Source of the DNA: Oscillospiraceae bacterium
GTDB lineage: Bacteria; Bacillota; Clostridia; Oscillospirales; Ruminococcaceae
DNA: 32,761 bases
Direction of reading: 5' to 3'
NCBI GenBank assembly: GCA_017847995.1
Contig: JAGAPB010000114.1
Coordinates: 1 to 32,761 of the forward strand
This document shows, in pieces, positions 12,851-31,574 of this stretch (position 1 is the stretch's first letter; each line of letters begins with the position of its first letter). Under the pieces are notes generated by a model, which was not told the DNA's origin, searched no databases, and was given only the letters and a program-made list of their open reading frames with translations. Both the position numbers and the translations under genes were made by a program.

Positions 12851-14128
12851 TTGAAATTTACCGCTGAAATTCTTTGTGTAGGGACCGAAATTTTGTTGGG
12901 CAACATCGTCAACACCAACGCCACCGAACTAAGCCGCGGTCTGGCCGAGGTGGGGGTGGGGCTTTACCACCACACTGTTGTGGGGGATAACCCCCAGCGC
13001 CTGAAGGAAGCTTTGGAGATCGCCTTCAGCCGCAACAACCTGGTCATCACCACCGGCGGCCTTGGCCCCACCTACGACGACCTGACCAAGGAGACCATTG
13101 CCGCCTATTTTGGCCGCAAGCTGGTGCGTGACGAGGAATCGGAGCGCCGCATCCGCGCGTTTTTTGACCGCTGGAAGCGCCCCATGATGGAAAACAGCCG
13201 CGCCATGCCCGAAAACAACCTGAAACAGGCCGATATGCCCGAGGGCTGCATCATCCTGACCAACCATAACGGCACCGCCCCCGGCTGCATCATCGAAGGG
13301 GAGAACGGCAAGGTGGCCATCATGCTGCCCGGCCCACCCCGCGAGATGGCCCCCATGTTCCGCGAACAGGTGATGCCCTGGCTGCAGCAGCGCAGCGGGC
13401 AGGTTCTGCGCAGCCACAATGTTCACTTTTTCGGCATTGGTGAAAGCGCCCTGGAAGAACAGCTTCGGGAAAAGATGGAAACCATGGAAAACCCCACCCT
13501 GGCCCCCTATGCCAAGGACGGCGAGGTGATGCTGCGTGTTACCGCCGCGGCCCCCACCCCCGAAGAGTGCGAGGATATGCTGGCCCCCGTGGTAAACAGA
13601 CTGCTGGAACACTTCCCCGGCCTCATCTACGGCGTGGACGTGGGCGACCTGCAAACCGCAGCGATAAAAGCCCTGCAGGAGAAGGGGCTGACCGCCGCCA
13701 CCGCCGAAAGCTGCACCGGCGGCCTCATCGGCAAACGCATCACCGAGGTGCCCGGCAGCTCCGAGGTTTATGGCTTTGGGGTAGTCACCTACGCCAACGA
13801 GGCAAAGATGAAGCTGCTTGGCGTAAAGGAAGAGACCCTGAAGCAATTTGGCGCTGTGTCGGAGCAGACCGCGGCCGAGATGGCGGCGGGCGCCCGTGCC
13901 CTTTCGGGGGCGGATATTGCCATTTCGGTCACCGGAATTGCCGGCCCGGGCGGCGGTTCGACAGAAAAACCGGTTGGTCTGGTGTATATTGGTGTGGACA
14001 GCCCCTGGCACAGCGAGGTGAAAAAACTCAACCTCAACCGGGGCTATGCCCAACAGCGTGAGCACATCCGCTGGGTGGCCGCCAGCCACGCCCTGGATCT
14101 GCTGCGCCGCACCGCCCAAATGCGCTGA
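12851..14128 (+). CDS. cinA: CinA: MoCF-like domain plus nicotinamide-nucleotide amidase (PncC)
   Basis: CinA is a two-enzyme protein of pyridine-nucleotide salvage, and is associated with competence in some Firmicutes. The 425-residue length is standard. Residues 1-170 form the molybdopterin-binding-like domain (VGTEILLGNIVNTN; TTGGLGPTYDDLT; PGCIIE... and IMLPGPPREM), and about 270-415 form the PncC amidase with its catalytic Ser in AESCTGG and the TGIAGPGGG loop, all intact. Translation apparently starts at a TTG: AAAAGAGG sits 8 bases upstream, and the family N-terminus begins exactly there. It follows tatD by 20 bp and precedes a DUF1653 gene. This intact copy is the reference for the degenerate CinA-like domain fused to a sortase at 25270. 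Confidence 0.96.
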   Translation: MKFTAEILCVGTEILLGNIVNTNATELSRGLAEVGVGLYHHTVVGDNPQRLKEALEIAFSRNNLVITTGGLGPTYDDLTKETIAAYFGRKLVRDEESERRIRAFFDRWKRPMMENSRAMPENNLKQADMPEGCIILTNHNGTAPGCIIEGENGKVAIMLPGPPREMAPMFREQVMPWLQQRSGQVLRSHNVHFFGIGESALEEQLREKMETMENPTLAPYAKDGEVMLRVTAAAPTPEECEDMLAPVVNRLLEHFPGLIYGVDVGDLQTAAIKALQEKGLTAATAESCTGGLIGKRITEVPGSSEVYGFGVVTYANEAKMKLLGVKEETLKQFGAVSEQTAAEMAAGARALSGADIAISVTGIAGPGGGSTEKPVGLVYIGVDSPWHSEVKKLNLNRGYAQQREHIRWVAASHALDLLRRTAQMR

Positions 14129-23701: not shown

Positions 23702-23749
23702 TACTGAAATAGGACACGTCCGTTTAAACAACGAATGGAGGTACTCTTT

Positions 23750-24970
23750 ATGAAAAAAGTTCTGTCTTTGATTTTGGCTTTGATCATGCTGGTCGCAATG
23801 GCTGTTCCTGCCTTTGCAGACGATGGCTATGATCTTGTTATGACCGATAAGTCGGATAAAAAGCTTGGCGATGATGGCCAGATGCTGCCCGGCGAAACCT
23901 ATTATATTGAAATGACCAACGGTACCAATGACATTAGCGTTGACAAGCGCGATTTTAAGATCGAGTTCGACATCGTAAAGGGCTCCAAGTATGTTGCAGA
24001 CCACGGCCTGGAAGACGGCGAGTTCTTTATCACCGTTGCCAACAACCACTCCCTGACCGTGGACAACCCCGGTTACATCGATTTTGAGATCACCCTGACC
24101 GCCAAGGACGATTGGACCTCCCGCGGCATTGAAAAGGGTGAAAAGTTCTATTACAGCGATTCCTACGACGTGGGCAACGACATCTATTATGTTGATACCT
24201 ATGAAGATGCCGAGGATGCCGAAATTTACGACGGCACCGGTTCGGCCATCTCCTTTGCCGCCGACGACCGCGGCTGGGTCATTTTTGACTGTGGCCCCAT
24301 CGATATCCAGATGCGTCTGGGCTCCCGCGCCATCGCCTTTGACCCCGATGAAAGCAAAATTGCCGCCATCGACAAGCTGGCCAAGAACAGCGTTCCCAAG
24401 TGTGTCAACTTCCTGGCCCAGCCCACCATCTCCGGCACCGCCACTTTTATGGTAGACGATGACTACGACTATGTTTACTCCTTCGACGGCACCAAGCTGA
24501 CCCGCATCGACGTCAAGGAAGATGGCCGCCACAACACCTGGAAGATGACCGACGTTACCCTGGGCACCTTCGTTCTCAGCACCGAATCGCTGGCCGGCAG
24601 CGTTGCTCAGCAGCCTGCCTCTCAGCCCGAGGCCCCCGCACCTGCTCCCCAGTCTTCGGCTGCTCCCGCTCCCGCACCTGTCCCCGAATCCTCGGCTGCA
24701 CCGGCCCCCGCACCCGAATCTTCGGTAGCTGAGCCTGCACCCGAGCCCGAAGAACCCGCCGTGGACATCACCCCCGAACCCGAACCCGAGACCGAGCCCG
24801 CACCCGAAACCGAGGCAGAAGAAGAGGAACCCGTAGAGGCTCCAGTGGAAGAGGAAGAACCTTCCAAGTCTTTGATGCCCGTTGTATTGATGATCCTGGC
24901 TGCCGCCATCGTTGTGGCCATCCTCATCGCCCTGCTGGTTGCCCGTTCCGGCAAAAAGAGCCGTCGCTAA
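23750..24970 (+). CDS. secreted, C-terminally membrane-anchored surface protein related to the NPDTG protein
   Basis: The 406-residue protein has a signal peptide (cleavage near AFAD, ~23-25), an acidic beta-rich ectodomain (~25-285), a Pro/Ala/Glu/Ser stalk (~290-375) and one transmembrane helix (~380-400) before an RSGKKSRR tail. It has no LPXTG- or NPXTG-like motif, so it is a type I membrane protein rather than a sortase substrate. Its last ~65 ectodomain residues (PTISGTATFMVDDDYDYVYSF... onward) align with those of the protein at 10137-11153 over the same strand order, so the two share a domain. GGAGG lies 8 bases before the ATG. It has its own promoter and terminator just upstream of the sortase pair. 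No ligand or activity can be named. Confidence 0.88.
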   Translation: MKKVLSLILALIMLVAMAVPAFADDGYDLVMTDKSDKKLGDDGQMLPGETYYIEMTNGTNDISVDKRDFKIEFDIVKGSKYVADHGLEDGEFFITVANNHSLTVDNPGYIDFEITLTAKDDWTSRGIEKGEKFYYSDSYDVGNDIYYVDTYEDAEDAEIYDGTGSAISFAADDRGWVIFDCGPIDIQMRLGSRAIAFDPDESKIAAIDKLAKNSVPKCVNFLAQPTISGTATFMVDDDYDYVYSFDGTKLTRIDVKEDGRHNTWKMTDVTLGTFVLSTESLAGSVAQQPASQPEAPAPAPQSSAAPAPAPVPESSAAPAPAPESSVAEPAPEPEEPAVDITPEPEPETEPAPETEAEEEEPVEAPVEEEEPSKSLMPVVLMILAAAIVVAILIALLVARSGKKSRR

Positions 24971-24987
24971 GCACACTGAGAAGAGAG

Positions 24988-25016
24988 AAAAGACCGGTGC
25001 TTTGCACCGGTCTTTT
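24988..25016 (+). terminator. intrinsic terminator after the surface protein gene
   Basis: A perfect 13-bp stem pairs 24988-25000 with 25004-25016 around a TTT loop, ending in a T-run. Confidence 0.92.
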
Positions 25017-25058
25017 TCACACAGCCCACACCTGGGGCCGGTACCCTTAAAAATCGGC

Positions 25059-25269: not shown

Positions 25270-28200
25270 ATGACCATACAACTGATCGGCGTAGGCAGTC
25301 AAAGCCGTCTGCGGCAGGTGCTTCAATCCAATATTGACCTACTGAAGGACGAGCTTGGGCTGCTGGGGATCGATACCCCGGCCATGCCGGCCGTTGCAGA
25401 CACCCAGCAGCGTCTGCAGCACTTGCTGGCCGAGACCATTTCCTCCGGTCGTTCGGCCATCATTGTGGGCGGCATTGGCGAAGAAGATGACTTCACCGTA
25501 TCCACCGTCTGCAAGGGCCTTTCGGTTCCCATGGTGGAAGACCACCTGAGCTACAACCAGATCAAAGCCAAATATGAGGCCGAGGGCCAGACCATTCCCA
25601 AGGGCGTTCGCCGCGGGGTAAAGGTTCCGGAAGGGGCCACCGTCTTCCGCAGCAAAACCGGGGGCTACCCCGGCTGCGCCGTCTCCTCGGGCGGCCAGTG
25701 CATCATCATGCTGCCCGATGACCCCGCCGAGCTGCGTTCTTTGCTGGATGGCAGCGTGTTTTCCTACCTTTCGGAAGTAAGCGGCCGGCCCGCCGTGCGC
25801 CACCGCATCGGGGTTTCGGGGCTTTCGGCCAGCCAGGCCAGCCAGATGCTGGAGGACCTGCTGGGACGGAAAAACCCTGCCGTTAAGGTCAGCGCCGGAG
25901 CCGGCGAGGTTTTGGTAAGAACCACCACCCTGGGCCAAACCCTGGGCGAAGCCGCCAATTTGGGCCTCAGCGTTGTGGATGCCGTCAAATCCCGCCTGGG
26001 AAGCTGCGTCTACGGTGTTGACACCGACGGCATCGTCCCCGTGGTTTCGGAACTGCTCAAATCCAAAAACGCCCGCATCGCCGTGGCTGAAGCGGGCTTG
26101 GAGGGACAGGTGTGCCGCCTGCTTTCCCGCGGCGGCATTCTGACCGGCGGGGCGGATTTTTCCGACAACCAGGGCAAAAAAGCTTTGGGGCTGAATGCCA
26201 AGGCACAGGATGACCAGACCCTTGCCGTGGCTGCGGCAAACGCCATCCGCCGCCAAAGCGGAGCCGCCCTGGGCCTGGCGGTACATACCGAAAGCCAGCC
26301 CGACGGCCGCCAAAGAATTTCGCTGGCCCTGACCGATGCCAAAAAGGCCTGGACCCGCACCCTTTCGGTCAACAGCAGCAACCCCGCCTTTGTGCGCAAT
26401 GTTGCCGTCAACCAGGCCATGAACATGGTGCGGCTTTACGCTTCCCATTATAACGAGATCCTGCCCACCGCAAGGGAACTGGGCGAATTCCAGCTTGCTT
26501 CGGCCCGGGGAGGAAAGAAGGCCCCCGCCTTTGCCGGGGTTTTCGGCGGAAAAAAGGAAAAGGCCCCCGAAAAAACCAGGGGCAGCCAAACCCCTGCCCG
26601 CAGGGAAGCTGCCGGAGAAGCTGCCGCCCAAAAGGCCGCCTGGTGGACCCGCTTTATCCCTGTCAAAGGGGATGACAAGCGGGAGATCATCCGCAAGTGC
26701 GTCTTCTGGCTGGCCATCGTGGTCTTCATCAGCCCCATCGCCTACATCATTGGGGTAAAGCAGGAATCGGTCAACAACGAAAAACTGACCCAGGAACTGG
26801 GCAGCATGCTGGTGGACGATGATTACGAGGCTTCCGACGATTATCCCGATGATTATCTGAAGAAGTTTGCCGCCCTGTGGGAACGCAACGAGGACATTGC
26901 CGGGTGGATCGAAATTGCCGGCACTCAGGTCAACTATCCCGTTGTGCAGGGCAAAAACAACGAGTTCTATTCCCGCCTTGACTTTGACCGAAACAACAAC
27001 AACCACGGCGTCCCCTTTGTGGATTTCCGTGTTGACCAGAAAAAGCCCAGCACCAACACCGTCATCTACGCCCACAACATGAATGACGGCCAGATGTTCG
27101 GTGAACTGATGAACTACAAGAACCTGTCCTACTACAAGGAACATCCCACCTTCCGGTACGACAGTGTCTATAAGGAAAATGAGTACAAGATTTTGGGCGT
27201 GTTCCTGGTAACTGCCAACGACCCCGAATTTTTGTACCACAACATGATCGACCTGGATGAGGCCGAGCTGACCGAATTTGTCAACCAGGTTCGTGCCCGC
27301 TCCCTCATCAACACCAAGATCGACGTAAAAACCACCGATAAGCTGGTCACTCTTTCCACCTGCGACTATTCCTTCAAGGATGCCCAGGGCAACCGTGTTG
27401 CCAGATTTGTAGTGGTGGGGCGCGCCATCCGCGATGGCGAAGCTCCCGCCGTGGATACCTCGGTAGCCACCCTGAACGCCAACCCCGTCATGCCCGCCGA
27501 ATGGTATGAACAGATCAAGCGCAACCAGGAAGCCGCCGAACTGGCCGCCGCCGAATCGGCCGCCCAGGAGGCCCTTGACTCGGTTGACCCCGAAAACATC
27601 AGCGCCTGGCTGACCCAGGAAGAGATCGACGCCTATCTGGCCGATGGCTATACCGAAGACGACCTGTGGTACTTTGCCGACGAGCGCCGCTACGAGCTGC
27701 TGGAATGGCTGGCCGAAGAGGAAATGACCTCCCTGACCGCCGCCGAAAAGCTCAGCGCCATGTATGCCCGCCGCGATAAGCTGTGGCTGGCCGAAGAGGA
27801 CCACAGCCTGACCGAAGCCGAAAAGCGGGAGAAGATCGCCGCCAACCAGGCCGCAGCCGCCATCCTCAGCCCCGAGGAACTGGCCAAGTGCCGCAGCTGG
27901 AACGAGATCCAGAAGGCAATGAAGAAGAAACTGGAAAGCATGTGCGAAACCCAGGGCTGTACCCTGCCCAGGGGCCACGAGGGCCTGCACAGCAACCAGA
28001 CCCCCTGTGACACCGCCGGCTGCACCCTGCCCAAGGGCCACAGCGGCCTGCACAGCAACCAGACTGCCTGTGACACCGCCGGCTGCACCCTGCCCAAGGG
28101 CCACAGCGGTCTGCACAGCAACCAGACTGCCTGCGACACCGCTGGCTGCACCCTGCCCAAGGGCCACACCGGAAAGCACAGCAACCAGTGTCCGGCAGAG

Positions 28201-28446
28201 GGCTGCACCTTTGCCAAGGGACACGAAGGACCGCACAGCAATCAGACACCTCCTCCCGAGACGTCCGATCCCGAAACCTCCAGGTCGGATTCGGCCAGCT
28301 CTGAATCTGCCTCCGGCAGTGGCGAATCATCTTCCGGTTCTGAGGGCTCTTCCGGCGGAGGAGAAACTTCCAGCGGAAGCGAAACCACATCCAGCGGCAC
28401 CGAAGTTATTGCCGTGGCGGTTTCGGACAATTCTTCGGATGCGTAA
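25270..28446 (+). CDS. CinA-like pseudoenzyme fused to a membrane-bound class B sortase with C-X4-C-X5-H-X3-H repeats
   Basis: The 1058-residue protein has, in order: a CinA-type MoCF-like domain (1-165; VGGIGEEDDFTV at 66-77, VPEGATVF, PGCAV, IIMLPDDPAELRSL), a linker domain, and a PncC-like domain (~248-405), collinear with the true CinA at 12851. The amidase motif AESCTGG reads AEAGLEG (273-279) and TGIAGPGGG reads VHTESQPDG (338-346), so it should be inactive. A basic linker leads to one transmembrane helix (~478-497). A class B sortase domain (~500-730) follows with H602 (YAHNM), C698 (LSTC) and R712 (RFVVVG), all catalytic residues present. A helical region (735-890), five ~21-residue Cys/His repeats (892-994) and a Ser/Gly tail end it. 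The basic linker suggests the CinA part is cytoplasmic and the sortase external. The ATG at 25270 is where CinA homology begins. Fusion integrity comes from one uninterrupted frame; function of the pairing is unknown. Confidence 0.85.
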   Translation: MTIQLIGVGSQSRLRQVLQSNIDLLKDELGLLGIDTPAMPAVADTQQRLQHLLAETISSGRSAIIVGGIGEEDDFTVSTVCKGLSVPMVEDHLSYNQIKAKYEAEGQTIPKGVRRGVKVPEGATVFRSKTGGYPGCAVSSGGQCIIMLPDDPAELRSLLDGSVFSYLSEVSGRPAVRHRIGVSGLSASQASQMLEDLLGRKNPAVKVSAGAGEVLVRTTTLGQTLGEAANLGLSVVDAVKSRLGSCVYGVDTDGIVPVVSELLKSKNARIAVAEAGLEGQVCRLLSRGGILTGGADFSDNQGKKALGLNAKAQDDQTLAVAAANAIRRQSGAALGLAVHTESQPDGRQRISLALTDAKKAWTRTLSVNSSNPAFVRNVAVNQAMNMVRLYASHYNEILPTARELGEFQLASARGGKKAPAFAGVFGGKKEKAPEKTRGSQTPARREAAGEAAAQKAAWWTRFIPVKGDDKREIIRKCVFWLAIVVFISPIAYIIGVKQESVNNEKLTQELGSMLVDDDYEASDDYPDDYLKKFAALWERNEDIAGWIEIAGTQVNYPVVQGKNNEFYSRLDFDRNNNNHGVPFVDFRVDQKKPSTNTVIYAHNMNDGQMFGELMNYKNLSYYKEHPTFRYDSVYKENEYKILGVFLVTANDPEFLYHNMIDLDEAELTEFVNQVRARSLINTKIDVKTTDKLVTLSTCDYSFKDAQGNRVARFVVVGRAIRDGEAPAVDTSVATLNANPVMPAEWYEQIKRNQEAAELAAAESAAQEALDSVDPENISAWLTQEEIDAYLADGYTEDDLWYFADERRYELLEWLAEEEMTSLTAAEKLSAMYARRDKLWLAEEDHSLTEAEKREKIAANQAAAAILSPEELAKCRSWNEIQKAMKKKLESMCETQGCTLPRGHEGLHSNQTPCDTAGCTLPKGHSGLHSNQTACDTAGCTLPKGHSGLHSNQTACDTAGCTLPKGHTGKHSNQCPAEGCTFAKGHEGPHSNQTPPPETSDPETSRSDSASSESASGSGESSSGSEGSSGGGETSSGSETTSSGTEVIAVAVSDNSSDA
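27943..28251 (+). repeat. five 57-63-bp in-frame tandem repeats encoding C-X4-C-X5-H-X3-H units
   Basis: Units start at 27943, 28006, 28069, 28132 and 28189. Three middle units are nearly identical in DNA. Each encodes CxxxxCTLPKGHxGxHSNQ. The third repeat differs from the second at few bases, consistent with recent expansion. Cys and His spacing suggests a small metal-binding module, but binding is inferred. Confidence 0.9.
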
Positions 28447-28460
28447 TATTTTTGCACAGA

Positions 28461-28497
28461 AAACAGGCATGGCCCGATGGCCATGCCTGTTTTTTTG
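28461..28497 (+). terminator. intrinsic terminator after the CinA-sortase gene
   Basis: A perfect 14-bp stem pairs 28461-28474 with 28479-28492 around CGAT, followed by T residues. Confidence 0.92.
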
Positions 28498-28597
28498 CGC
28501 CGCCCGACCCTGCTTTCCGCAATCGAAAAAAACGCCCCCTTTTTTTGGGTATTCCGTCAATAGGTTATTGCCAAGATAAATTGTATTATAAAGAATA

Positions 28598-28648: not shown

Positions 28649-30661
28649 ATGAATCAAAAGAAACAGGAAAAGTCCCAGTGGTGGACCCGCTTTATCCCTG
28701 TTAAAGGGGACGACAAGCGTGAGATCATCCGCAAATGCATCTTTTGGGTGGCCATCGTTGTGTTTGTCTGCTCCATCGCCTACATCCTCAGCGTAAGGCA
28801 GGAGTCGGTCTACACGGAAAAACTGACCCAGGAGCTGGGCAATATGCTGGTGGTGGACGAAAACTACGAAGTGGTGGACGACTACCCCGATGACTATCTG
28901 ACCAAGTTTGCCGCCCTGTGGGAACGCAATGAAGACATTGCCGGCTGGATCGAAATTGCCGGGACCAAACTGAATTATCCTGTGGTGCAGGCCAACAGCA
29001 ACACAAAATATCATCGTGCCGACTTTGACGGCAACTATAACGATCACGGCGTTCCCTATGTTGATTACCGCGCAGACATCAAAAAGCCCAGCACCAACAC
29101 CGTCATTTATGGCCACAACATGAACGACGGCCAGATGTTCGGCGAGCTGATGAACTACAAAAAGATCTCCTATTATAAGGAACACCCCACCTTCCGTTAC
29201 GACACCGTATACAAGGAAAACGAATATAAAATTCTGGGCGTGTTTTTGGTGACTGCCAACGACCCCGAATTTATGTACCACAGCATGATCGACCTGGATG
29301 AAGCTGGACTGACCGAATTTGTCAACCAGGTGCGTGCCCGCTCCCTCATCAACACCAAAATTGACGTGAACACCGCCGACAAGCTGGTCACCCTTTCCAC
29401 CTGTGACTATTCCTTCCGGGATGCCCAGGGCAACCGTGTGGCGCGCTTTGTTGTGGTGGGCCGCGCCATCCGCGAAGGGGAAGACCCCGCTGTGGATACC
29501 TCCATCGTCACCCTGAACGCCAGCCCCGTCATGCCCGCCGAATGGTACGAGCAGATCAAGCGCAACCAGGAGGCCGCCGAACTGGCTGCCGCCGAAGCAG
29601 CCTCTCAGGCCGCACTGGAATCGGTCAACCCCGACAATATCACCGCCTGGCTGACCCAGGAGGAAATTGACGCCTACACCGCCGAGGGCTACAGCCCCGA
29701 AGATTTGGAATTCTTTGCTTCGGAACGCCGCTATGCCCTGCTGGAATGGCTGGACGAAGAGGAAATGACCGGCATGACCCCCGCCGAAAAGCTGAGCGCC
29801 ATGCGCAGCCGCCGCGACCGCAAGTGGCTTTCGGAAGAGGACCGTGATGCCAATCTGACCGAAGCCGAAAAGCTGGAAAAGATCGCCGCCAATCAGGCCG
29901 CAGCCGCCATCCTCACCCCCGAGGAACTGGCCAAGTGCCGCAGTTGGAAGGATATCCAGGAACTGCTGGCCACCAAGCAGCAGGCTGCCGAAGCCGCCAA
30001 GCAAAAGGAAGAAAAGGCCGCCGGACAAATTCCCGCAAAGCTGACCGGGAAGTACCGCAGCGCCTGTCTGGCCGAAATGATAAAGGCCGACGAAAGCAAA
30101 TGGCCGGAAATCATTCAGAAATACCTGGATAAGTTTGATGCTGAACATAAACACAACTATAAAGCAACTGTGACCGCTCCCACCTGTGGTGCACCTGGTT
30201 ACACCACCTATGTTTGCGAGTGTGGAGATAAATACACCGGTGATGAAGTTGCAGCTACCGGACAGCATACCTATAATGATACCGTAGTTGACCCCACCGA
30301 AACCGAGAAGGGTTATACCAAGCACACCTGCACGGTCTGCGGCTATTCGTACGAGGATAATTATACTGGCCCCACCGGCTCAAGCAGCTCCAGTTCGGGC
30401 AGCAGTAGCACAACGCCCCCCGAATCTTCCGGCGGCGGTAGCGGTGAAGATGCCTCTGGCGAAGGGAGCTCCAACGAGGGGAATACCGGCGAAGGTACTG
30501 GCGACACCAACGGAGAGAACACTCCCTCAGGCGATGGAACCAAAGACGAAAATCAAACCGACCCGGCCGATGTTCCCGCCACTGTAAGCGAGGGGGAAGA
30601 AGACCCGATTGACGATGACGAAGAACCCGCCACTGGCGAAGGAACCCAACCCACTGAATAA
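28649..30661 (+). CDS. class B sortase with long helical and CxCG-repeat tail
   Basis: The 670-residue protein begins with a short cytoplasmic end, one transmembrane helix (~31-50) and an external class B sortase domain (~55-275). H156 (YGHNM), C252 (LSTC) and R266 (RFVVVG) form the catalytic set; sortase B enzymes cut NPXTG/NPQTN-type signals and link proteins to the wall or to pilins. From TRFIPVKGDDKREIIRK through the helical region (to ~455) it is closely similar to residues ~460-890 of the preceding protein, so they are tandem duplicates. The C-terminus differs: two HxHxY-PTC-GYT-CxCG repeats (~500-574), then an acidic Ser/Gly tail. AGGAGGAAA precedes the ATG. The candidate substrate is the NPDTG protein at 10137. 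Confidence 0.95.
   Translation: MNQKKQEKSQWWTRFIPVKGDDKREIIRKCIFWVAIVVFVCSIAYILSVRQESVYTEKLTQELGNMLVVDENYEVVDDYPDDYLTKFAALWERNEDIAGWIEIAGTKLNYPVVQANSNTKYHRADFDGNYNDHGVPYVDYRADIKKPSTNTVIYGHNMNDGQMFGELMNYKKISYYKEHPTFRYDTVYKENEYKILGVFLVTANDPEFMYHSMIDLDEAGLTEFVNQVRARSLINTKIDVNTADKLVTLSTCDYSFRDAQGNRVARFVVVGRAIREGEDPAVDTSIVTLNASPVMPAEWYEQIKRNQEAAELAAAEAASQAALESVNPDNITAWLTQEEIDAYTAEGYSPEDLEFFASERRYALLEWLDEEEMTGMTPAEKLSAMRSRRDRKWLSEEDRDANLTEAEKLEKIAANQAAAAILTPEELAKCRSWKDIQELLATKQQAAEAAKQKEEKAAGQIPAKLTGKYRSACLAEMIKADESKWPEIIQKYLDKFDAEHKHNYKATVTAPTCGAPGYTTYVCECGDKYTGDEVAATGQHTYNDTVVDPTETEKGYTKHTCTVCGYSYEDNYTGPTGSSSSSSGSSSTTPPESSGGGSGEDASGEGSSNEGNTGEGTGDTNGENTPSGDGTKDENQTDPADVPATVSEGEEDPIDDDEEPATGEGTQPTE
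30146..30370 (+). other. CxCG-type repeat segment with distinct base composition
   Basis: The DNA encoding residues ~500-574 of the second sortase is visibly more A/T-rich at third positions (AAA, TAT, GAT, GCA) than the flanking parts of the same gene. The encoded HKHNY-PTC-GYT-C-E-CG and HTY-YTKHTCTVCG units are widespread on bacterial surface proteins. The domain may have been acquired or swapped in. Confidence 0.55.
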
Positions 30662-30700: not shown

Positions 30701-30735
30701 CTTTATGGCGTAAAAATTTTTGGTAAAAATCATAA

Positions 30736-30764
30736 TTGACGGCGGGTTTGGCCGATGCTATACT
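30736..30764 (+). promoter_or_regulatory. promoter of the surface protein gene at 30822
   Basis: TTGACG (30736-30741), 17-bp spacer ending in TGC, TATACT (30759-30764): a near-consensus promoter with an extended -10. Confidence 0.75.
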
Positions 30765-30821
30765 GTTTTTGTAAAGTATCAAGAACACCCCCCATTTTAT
30801 CTCAAAGGAGGTCTTGCTCAA

Positions 30822-31574
30822 ATGAAAAAAATCATATCCGTTTTGCTTGCGCTGCTCATCGTTGCCGCCATCACCCCTTTGGCTGTCTTTGCAGATGGTT
30901 CAACTTCTTCCAGCAGCACTGATACACGCAACACCGGTTCTTCTGACAATTCAAGCAGTTATGATTCTTTTGATCCCAACACAGGAAGTTCTGGTGCAAG
31001 CAGCTCCTCTGAAGAGCCCCGCTCGACCCCCAAGGTCACTTTTTACACCGTTAAGGCTTCAGCCGGAGAGGGTGGCACCATCGACCCCGAAGGGGAAGTG
31101 GACGTTCGCAGAAAGTTTGACAAGACCTTTACCATCACCGCCGACGATGGCTATGTAATTGCCGACGTATTGGTGGACGGCAAGAGCGTTGGCGCCGTGG
31201 CGGAATATTCCTTTATCGACGTGCGCAAGAGCCACCGCATTTCCGCCGAGTTTGTTTTGGCTCCCGCAGCACCTTTGGAAGAAAGCGGCGGGGAGCCGGT
31301 GGAAGACCCTGTTGAGGAAGCACCCGCAGAAGAGCCTGAACCTGAGGCCCCCGCTTCCCAGGAGCCTGCCCAGGAACAAGCGGCTGAACCCGCCGAGCCT
31401 GAAAGCACCCCTTCGGCACAGGCCTCTGACCCTGTGGAAGAGCCTGCCGTGCCCGAAGAAACCGAACCTCAGGCAAGTTCCTTCCCCTGGCTTATCCTTC
31501 TGCTGATCCTTATTATCATCGCTTTGCTGGTGTATCTGATGAAAAAGGCAAAGAAAAAGGACGAGAATAACTGA
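30822..31574 (+). CDS. secreted, C-terminally membrane-anchored Ser/Pro-rich surface protein with a bacterial repeat domain
   Basis: The 250-residue protein has a signal peptide (cleavage near VFAD, ~22-24), a Ser/Thr-rich linker (to ~65), and one ~70-residue beta domain (~68-140) of the bacterial surface repeat type: VKASAGEGGTIDPEGEVDV, FTITADDGYVIADVLVDGKSVG, ending HRISAEF. A Pro/Glu/Ala stalk (~145-220) and one transmembrane helix (~222-243) with a KKAKKKDENN tail follow. It has no sorting motif: DPNTG near residue 48 is internal, not followed by a hydrophobic segment, and so is not a signal. AAAGGAGG precedes the ATG. It lies just downstream of the sortase pair, with its own promoter and terminator. 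Ligand unknown. Confidence 0.85.
   Translation: MKKIISVLLALLIVAAITPLAVFADGSTSSSSTDTRNTGSSDNSSSYDSFDPNTGSSGASSSSEEPRSTPKVTFYTVKASAGEGGTIDPEGEVDVRRKFDKTFTITADDGYVIADVLVDGKSVGAVAEYSFIDVRKSHRISAEFVLAPAAPLEESGGEPVEDPVEEAPAEEPEPEAPASQEPAQEQAAEPAEPESTPSAQASDPVEEPAVPEETEPQASSFPWLILLLILIIIALLVYLMKKAKKKDENN

Follow-up and report, generated by a model that had tools for sequence, protein, structure and literature searches.

A CinA module fused to a class B sortase is predicted to have lost both enzyme activities and is under purifying selection in relatives

Introduction

Why would a bacterium that has a normal cinA gene keep another CinA module, whose catalytic residues have been replaced, at a distance of 11 kb on one and the same contig? 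We addressed this question in a 32,761-nucleotide stretch of DNA (the window) from an Oscillospiraceae bacterium, where the CinA domain forms the N-terminal part of a protein that continues with a membrane helix and a class B sortase. No paper on CinA-sortase fusions was found in the literature searched, a body of work that most subscription-journal papers lie outside. The features of the window discussed below are as follows (aa, residues of the fusion protein):

12851-14128, + strand: intact free-standing cinA of the second-copy clade (NF001813, 510.8 bits; all catalytic residues present)
24985-25020, no strand assigned: strong, terminator-like hairpin with a T run, separating the fusion gene from its upstream neighbour
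25270-28446, + strand: CinA-like/transmembrane/class B sortase fusion gene (1058 aa, ATG start, GAAGAAGG upstream of the start)
25270-25758, + strand: COG1058 (MoCF-like) domain (aa 1-163; PF00994, 1.4e-8, aa 8-163; alignment)
25807-26016, + strand: CinA KH domain (aa 180-249; PF18146, 5.3e-10)
26017-26454, + strand: degenerate PncC domain (aa 250-395; NF001813 alignment, model pLDDT 83.8, CinA fold match)
26086-26106, + strand: AEAGLEG replacing AESCTGG (aa 273-279)
26281-26307, + strand: VHTESQPDG replacing VTGIAGPGG (aa 338-346)
26686-27423, + strand: class B sortase domain (aa 473-704; TIGR03064; triad alignment)
26701-26757, + strand: single transmembrane helix (aa 478-496; hydropathy, strongly hydrophobic)
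27943-28251, + strand: five 57-63-nt repeats encoding C-x4-C-x5-H-x3-H units
28252-28443, + strand: Ser-rich C-terminal tail
28463-28500, + strand: terminator-like hairpin with a T run, 3' of the fusion gene

Results

The fusion gene encodes an entire CinA (COG1058/MoCF, KH and PncC), followed by one transmembrane helix and a class B sortase. The NCBIfam profile of full-length CinA, NF001813, covers aa 4-389 (9e-43), and PF00994 and PF18146 both score above their cut-offs. The sortase part reaches 168.4 bits, compared to the TIGR03064 equivalog cut-off of 153.75, and the triad residues His602, Cys698 and Arg712 are present in the alignment. Since strong hairpins with T runs occur on both flanks, the gene is probably transcribed alone. 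By analogy with the usual topology of sortases, the CinA part would lie inside the cell and the sortase outside. The five tandem C-x4-C-x5-H-x3-H units, predicted to face the outside of the cell, resemble metal-binding repeats. Directly downstream lies a second class B sortase (28649-30661, + strand), which shares 79% identity with residues 442-889 of the fusion protein and lacks any CinA part; it is a tandem duplication from which the module was dropped. The sortases are flanked by two secreted proteins with C-terminal membrane tails (23735-24970 and 30720-31574, both + strand); no clear sorting motif was seen by eye in the neighbouring surface proteins, the candidate sortase substrates.

Comparison with the intact cinA and the literature bore out what an earlier note on this DNA had read from the sequence, namely that a normal cinA is kept, that the PncC motifs are replaced with loss of the catalytic Ser, and that the flanking YGVD (26011-26022, aligned with YGVD of the intact cinA) is retained. 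In the numbering of Agrobacterium tumefaciens CinA, which we use for all PncC residues, Ser31, Tyr58 and Lys63 have become A275, F297 and G302 in the window fusion, with a lysine one residue past the K63 position; the phosphate-binding Arg145 is retained as R376. In the A. tumefaciens enzyme, the S31A, Y58A and K63A mutants have undetectable activity and Y58F lowers efficiency by 99.7% (PMC5384747). Up to an E value of 1, the window fusion gives no hit to the PncC profile PF02464; the fusion of a genus-mate does match it (88.8 bits). In the COG1058 domain, the metal-binding Glu of the GXEX3G motif, which is essential to the ADP-ribose pyrophosphatase and whose mutant is inactive (PMC3680494), is replaced by Gln11. 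The two Asp ligands (Asp44 and an Asp of DD73-74), Gly67 and Gly68 are retained, and the GGL/IGPX3D loop, GGIGEEDD at 25468-25491 where the intact cinA has GGLGPTYDD, has lost its Pro and is one residue shorter. With the PncC Ser, Lys and Tyr gone and the COG1058 Glu changed to Gln, both CinA activities of the window fusion are predicted to be lost.

The CinA and PncC folds are nevertheless predicted to be kept. A structural model of aa 1-405 has a mean pLDDT of 83.8 and matches Thermus thermophilus CinA (PDB 4ct8, 4cta and 4uux) over its whole length, with the same domain order, a Z score of 28 and 21% identity, while aa 210-394 match the A. tumefaciens PncC domain (2a9s) with a Z score of 19.9 and an rmsd of 1.9 over 144 residues. 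The model was built from an alignment of four sequences that included intact CinA proteins and may thus lean towards their fold, making it supportive evidence and not independent evidence.

Screening first 396 genomes of the family and then the order, we identified at least 58 membrane fusions of CinA, spread over 32 genera in four families of one order (at least 49 in the family, 5 more in one genus and 4 in three other families). Most are CinA-TM-sortase proteins, and many also carry a SpoIID domain; in one case, L038, SpoIID is present but the sortase is missing. With the intact protein as query, we screened 51 genomes for additional cinA genes. All catalytic residues proved to be kept in 16/16 fusions that are their genome's only cinA, and a full second cinA accompanied 29 of the 33 fusions with a lost site. 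The association of a lost site with a second cinA has a Fisher p of about 1e-9, a value that overstates the evidence, given the relatedness of the genomes and the fact that a single gain of a second cinA underlies much of the pattern. Two genomes are useful contrasts in that an intact PncC survives somewhere in each: G061 has a lost-site fusion and a free-standing intact PncC, and G033 has no second copy and a fusion with a degraded COG1058 part but an intact PncC. No second cinA was found in G032 (91% complete) or G316 (76%), both of which have lost-site fusions. The fusion of G114 has lost its PncC part outright, in frame. A link of the fusions to sporulation alone is at most possible, as Spo0A is present in 49/51 genomes and two fusion-bearing genomes gave no match.

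Other departures from the common architecture were seen. In L063, L066, L069, L071 and L081, CinA is intact and the sortase domain lacks its Cys/His, with a C-terminal SpoIID motif in 4/5 of them, and genome G129 encodes a free-standing degenerate CinA-like protein of 429 aa without a sortase (L113:428-1729, + strand). Chance resemblance to CinA was ruled out by the profile and fold matches, and an assembly or contamination artefact by the presence of both cinA copies on one contig and the recurrence of the architecture in many genera.

A tree built from the CinA region places all 30 second copies of cinA in a single clade (support 100); two of these, from G004 and others, come from genomes without a demonstrated fusion. 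The degenerate fusions form one group (support 99) on long branches, which make the grouping less sure than this support says, and the intact fusions intermix with single-copy separate cinA genes. In a tree of PncC alone, the free PncC of G061 joins the second copies (support 98) and the fused PncC of G033 is nearest the intact fusions. Most fusions lie downstream of nifS and thiI and some upstream of spoIID; the genus-mate G073 retains nifS-thiI-fusion-spoIID, and the window's fusion has no thiI beside it. At the same locus in related families, cinA, srtB and spoIID are unfused and adjacent, and unfused neighbours of this kind occur in G013, G045, G121, G069, G494, G664, G606 and G548, from which we infer that the fusions arose from neighbouring genes, once or several times. 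An apparent unfused form, with cinA, srtB and a spoIID-like gene separate and adjacent after thiI, is also seen at L128:180-3648 (- strand). To describe the fused copy as a redundant paralogue is not quite accurate: fusions of this type are the residents of the ancestral nifS-thiI-cinA locus, and it is the window's free-standing cinA that falls in the separate second-copy clade. In relatives, tatD was not found within about 400 bases of the second cinA.

The dead CinA domains are under purifying selection in relatives. We estimated dN/dS by a simple pairwise count, with several high dS values, in eight pairs of species whose CinA module is degenerate. It was 0.03-0.36 for PncC and 0.06-0.31 for MoCF-KH (one MoCF-KH comparison being saturated and two pairs sharing a genome), and the bootstrap upper bounds were all at most 0.54. 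The value near 1 by which the earlier note would have recognised neutral decay was not found in any measurable pair of related species. Even in genus g49, where neither the CinA sites nor the sortase His/Cys remain, dN/dS is still about 0.04-0.15. Synonymous sites are saturated between the window fusion and its nearest relative, and 32% protein identity is kept, compared to 7-9% for shuffled pairs. Between the window and its genus-mate, identity is 32% for the fusion and 54-61% for the free-standing cinA, so the fusion is the faster-evolving of the two. Selection may have relaxed recently in the window lineage.

Discussion

We consider it somewhat probable that the CinA module is a pseudoenzyme kept for its fold, serving as a structural module of a membrane sortase rather than as a sensor of its old ligands. 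In the order of events that we infer, an ancestral nifS-thiI-cinA-srtB(-spoIID) operon would have given rise to cinA-srtB and cinA-srtB-spoIID fusions. Where the fusion was the only cinA, it would have stayed a working, membrane-tethered NMN deamidase/ADP-ribose pyrophosphatase. One large subgroup would then have gained a second, free-standing cinA, after which the fused copy could lose both active sites and be kept for its fold. As a guess, this fold may act as a scaffold, dimerising or docking a partner and so holding the sortase in position. The loss of the PncC part in G114 and the window's tandem sortase without CinA show that the module is not always needed.

A different role for the dead module would be to bind NMN, ADP-ribose or another nucleotide and signal NAD status across the membrane to the sortase. 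The module precedes a single membrane helix and is expected on the cytoplasmic side, and the degenerate fusions mostly keep G35 as well as E30 (in 94%), K63 (in 74%) and the GG pair (in about 90%), so that contact with a ligand could in part persist; the COG1058 part has also acquired newly conserved residues around its positions 149-158. Against this, the metal Glu is kept in 6% of degenerate fusions, Asp46 in 10% and Tyr58 and Ser48 in 10%, and the replacements of S31 and Y58 vary by lineage. The earlier proposal that ligand binding by the MoCF-like part could survive is weakened by the Gln in place of the metal Glu and by the rarity of this Glu and of Asp46 across the group. Most pocket positions differ among lineages, and the change of C32 to Gly (74%) is the one new consensus among them. 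Weighing against our reading, pocket residues were not lost significantly more than other invariant residues (0.44 versus 0.57, p 0.15). The general lack of a new pocket consensus alongside conserved E30, GG pair and group-specific residues, together with constraint in proteins whose CinA and sortase are both dead, speaks for a structural role rather than for a sensor that uses the old pocket, without deciding between them, and we regard a sensor as rather unlikely. The broader proposal that the pseudo-CinA subfamily is a cytoplasmic receptor coupling NAD-related metabolites to surface-protein anchoring, and in the tripartite relatives to SpoIID-type wall processing, seems to us distinctly unlikely.

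The module could also be a remnant in neutral decay, carried along only because its translation precedes that of a sortase on which the cell depends. Its faster evolution and the in-frame loss of PncC in G114 are consistent with such decay, but the low dN/dS in all eight pairs and the protein identity kept where synonymous sites are saturated argue against it, making a neutral remnant quite improbable. It is harder still to credit that the degenerate group has evolved another catalytic activity. The group does have its own conserved residues (Q154 in 94%, L87 in 90%, also G86 and D384), most of them shared by the window, but these are not obviously catalytic, and the PncC half can disappear entirely.

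Retention of the module for its fold, our preferred reading, places these proteins in a natural series in which a fused enzyme is kept alive as the only copy and falls silent when a spare is present, with its fold still selected, so that the fate of a fused redundant enzyme becomes directly testable. The series ties CinA to sortase and SpoIID in one operon and in one protein, and it means that an annotation as 'CinA' or 'sortase' can hide proteins with one or both enzymes dead.

The window fusion shares features with several known systems. The free-standing cinA of the window has the same three domains as the fusion module (24% identity), but it has all its catalytic residues and belongs to a separate locus and clade. 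T. thermophilus CinA, unlike the fusion, is an active bifunctional soluble enzyme without a transmembrane helix or sortase. Class B sortases (TIGR03064) resemble the fusion in score and in the presence of His, Cys and Arg, and differ from it in lacking the 450-residue CinA module before the membrane helix and the long repeat tail. In the COG1058-FAD synthase of mammals and plants, COG1058 is likewise joined to another enzyme, although here the partner is FAD synthase and there is neither PncC nor a membrane helix; the plant form, too, is predicted to be inactive (PMC3680494).
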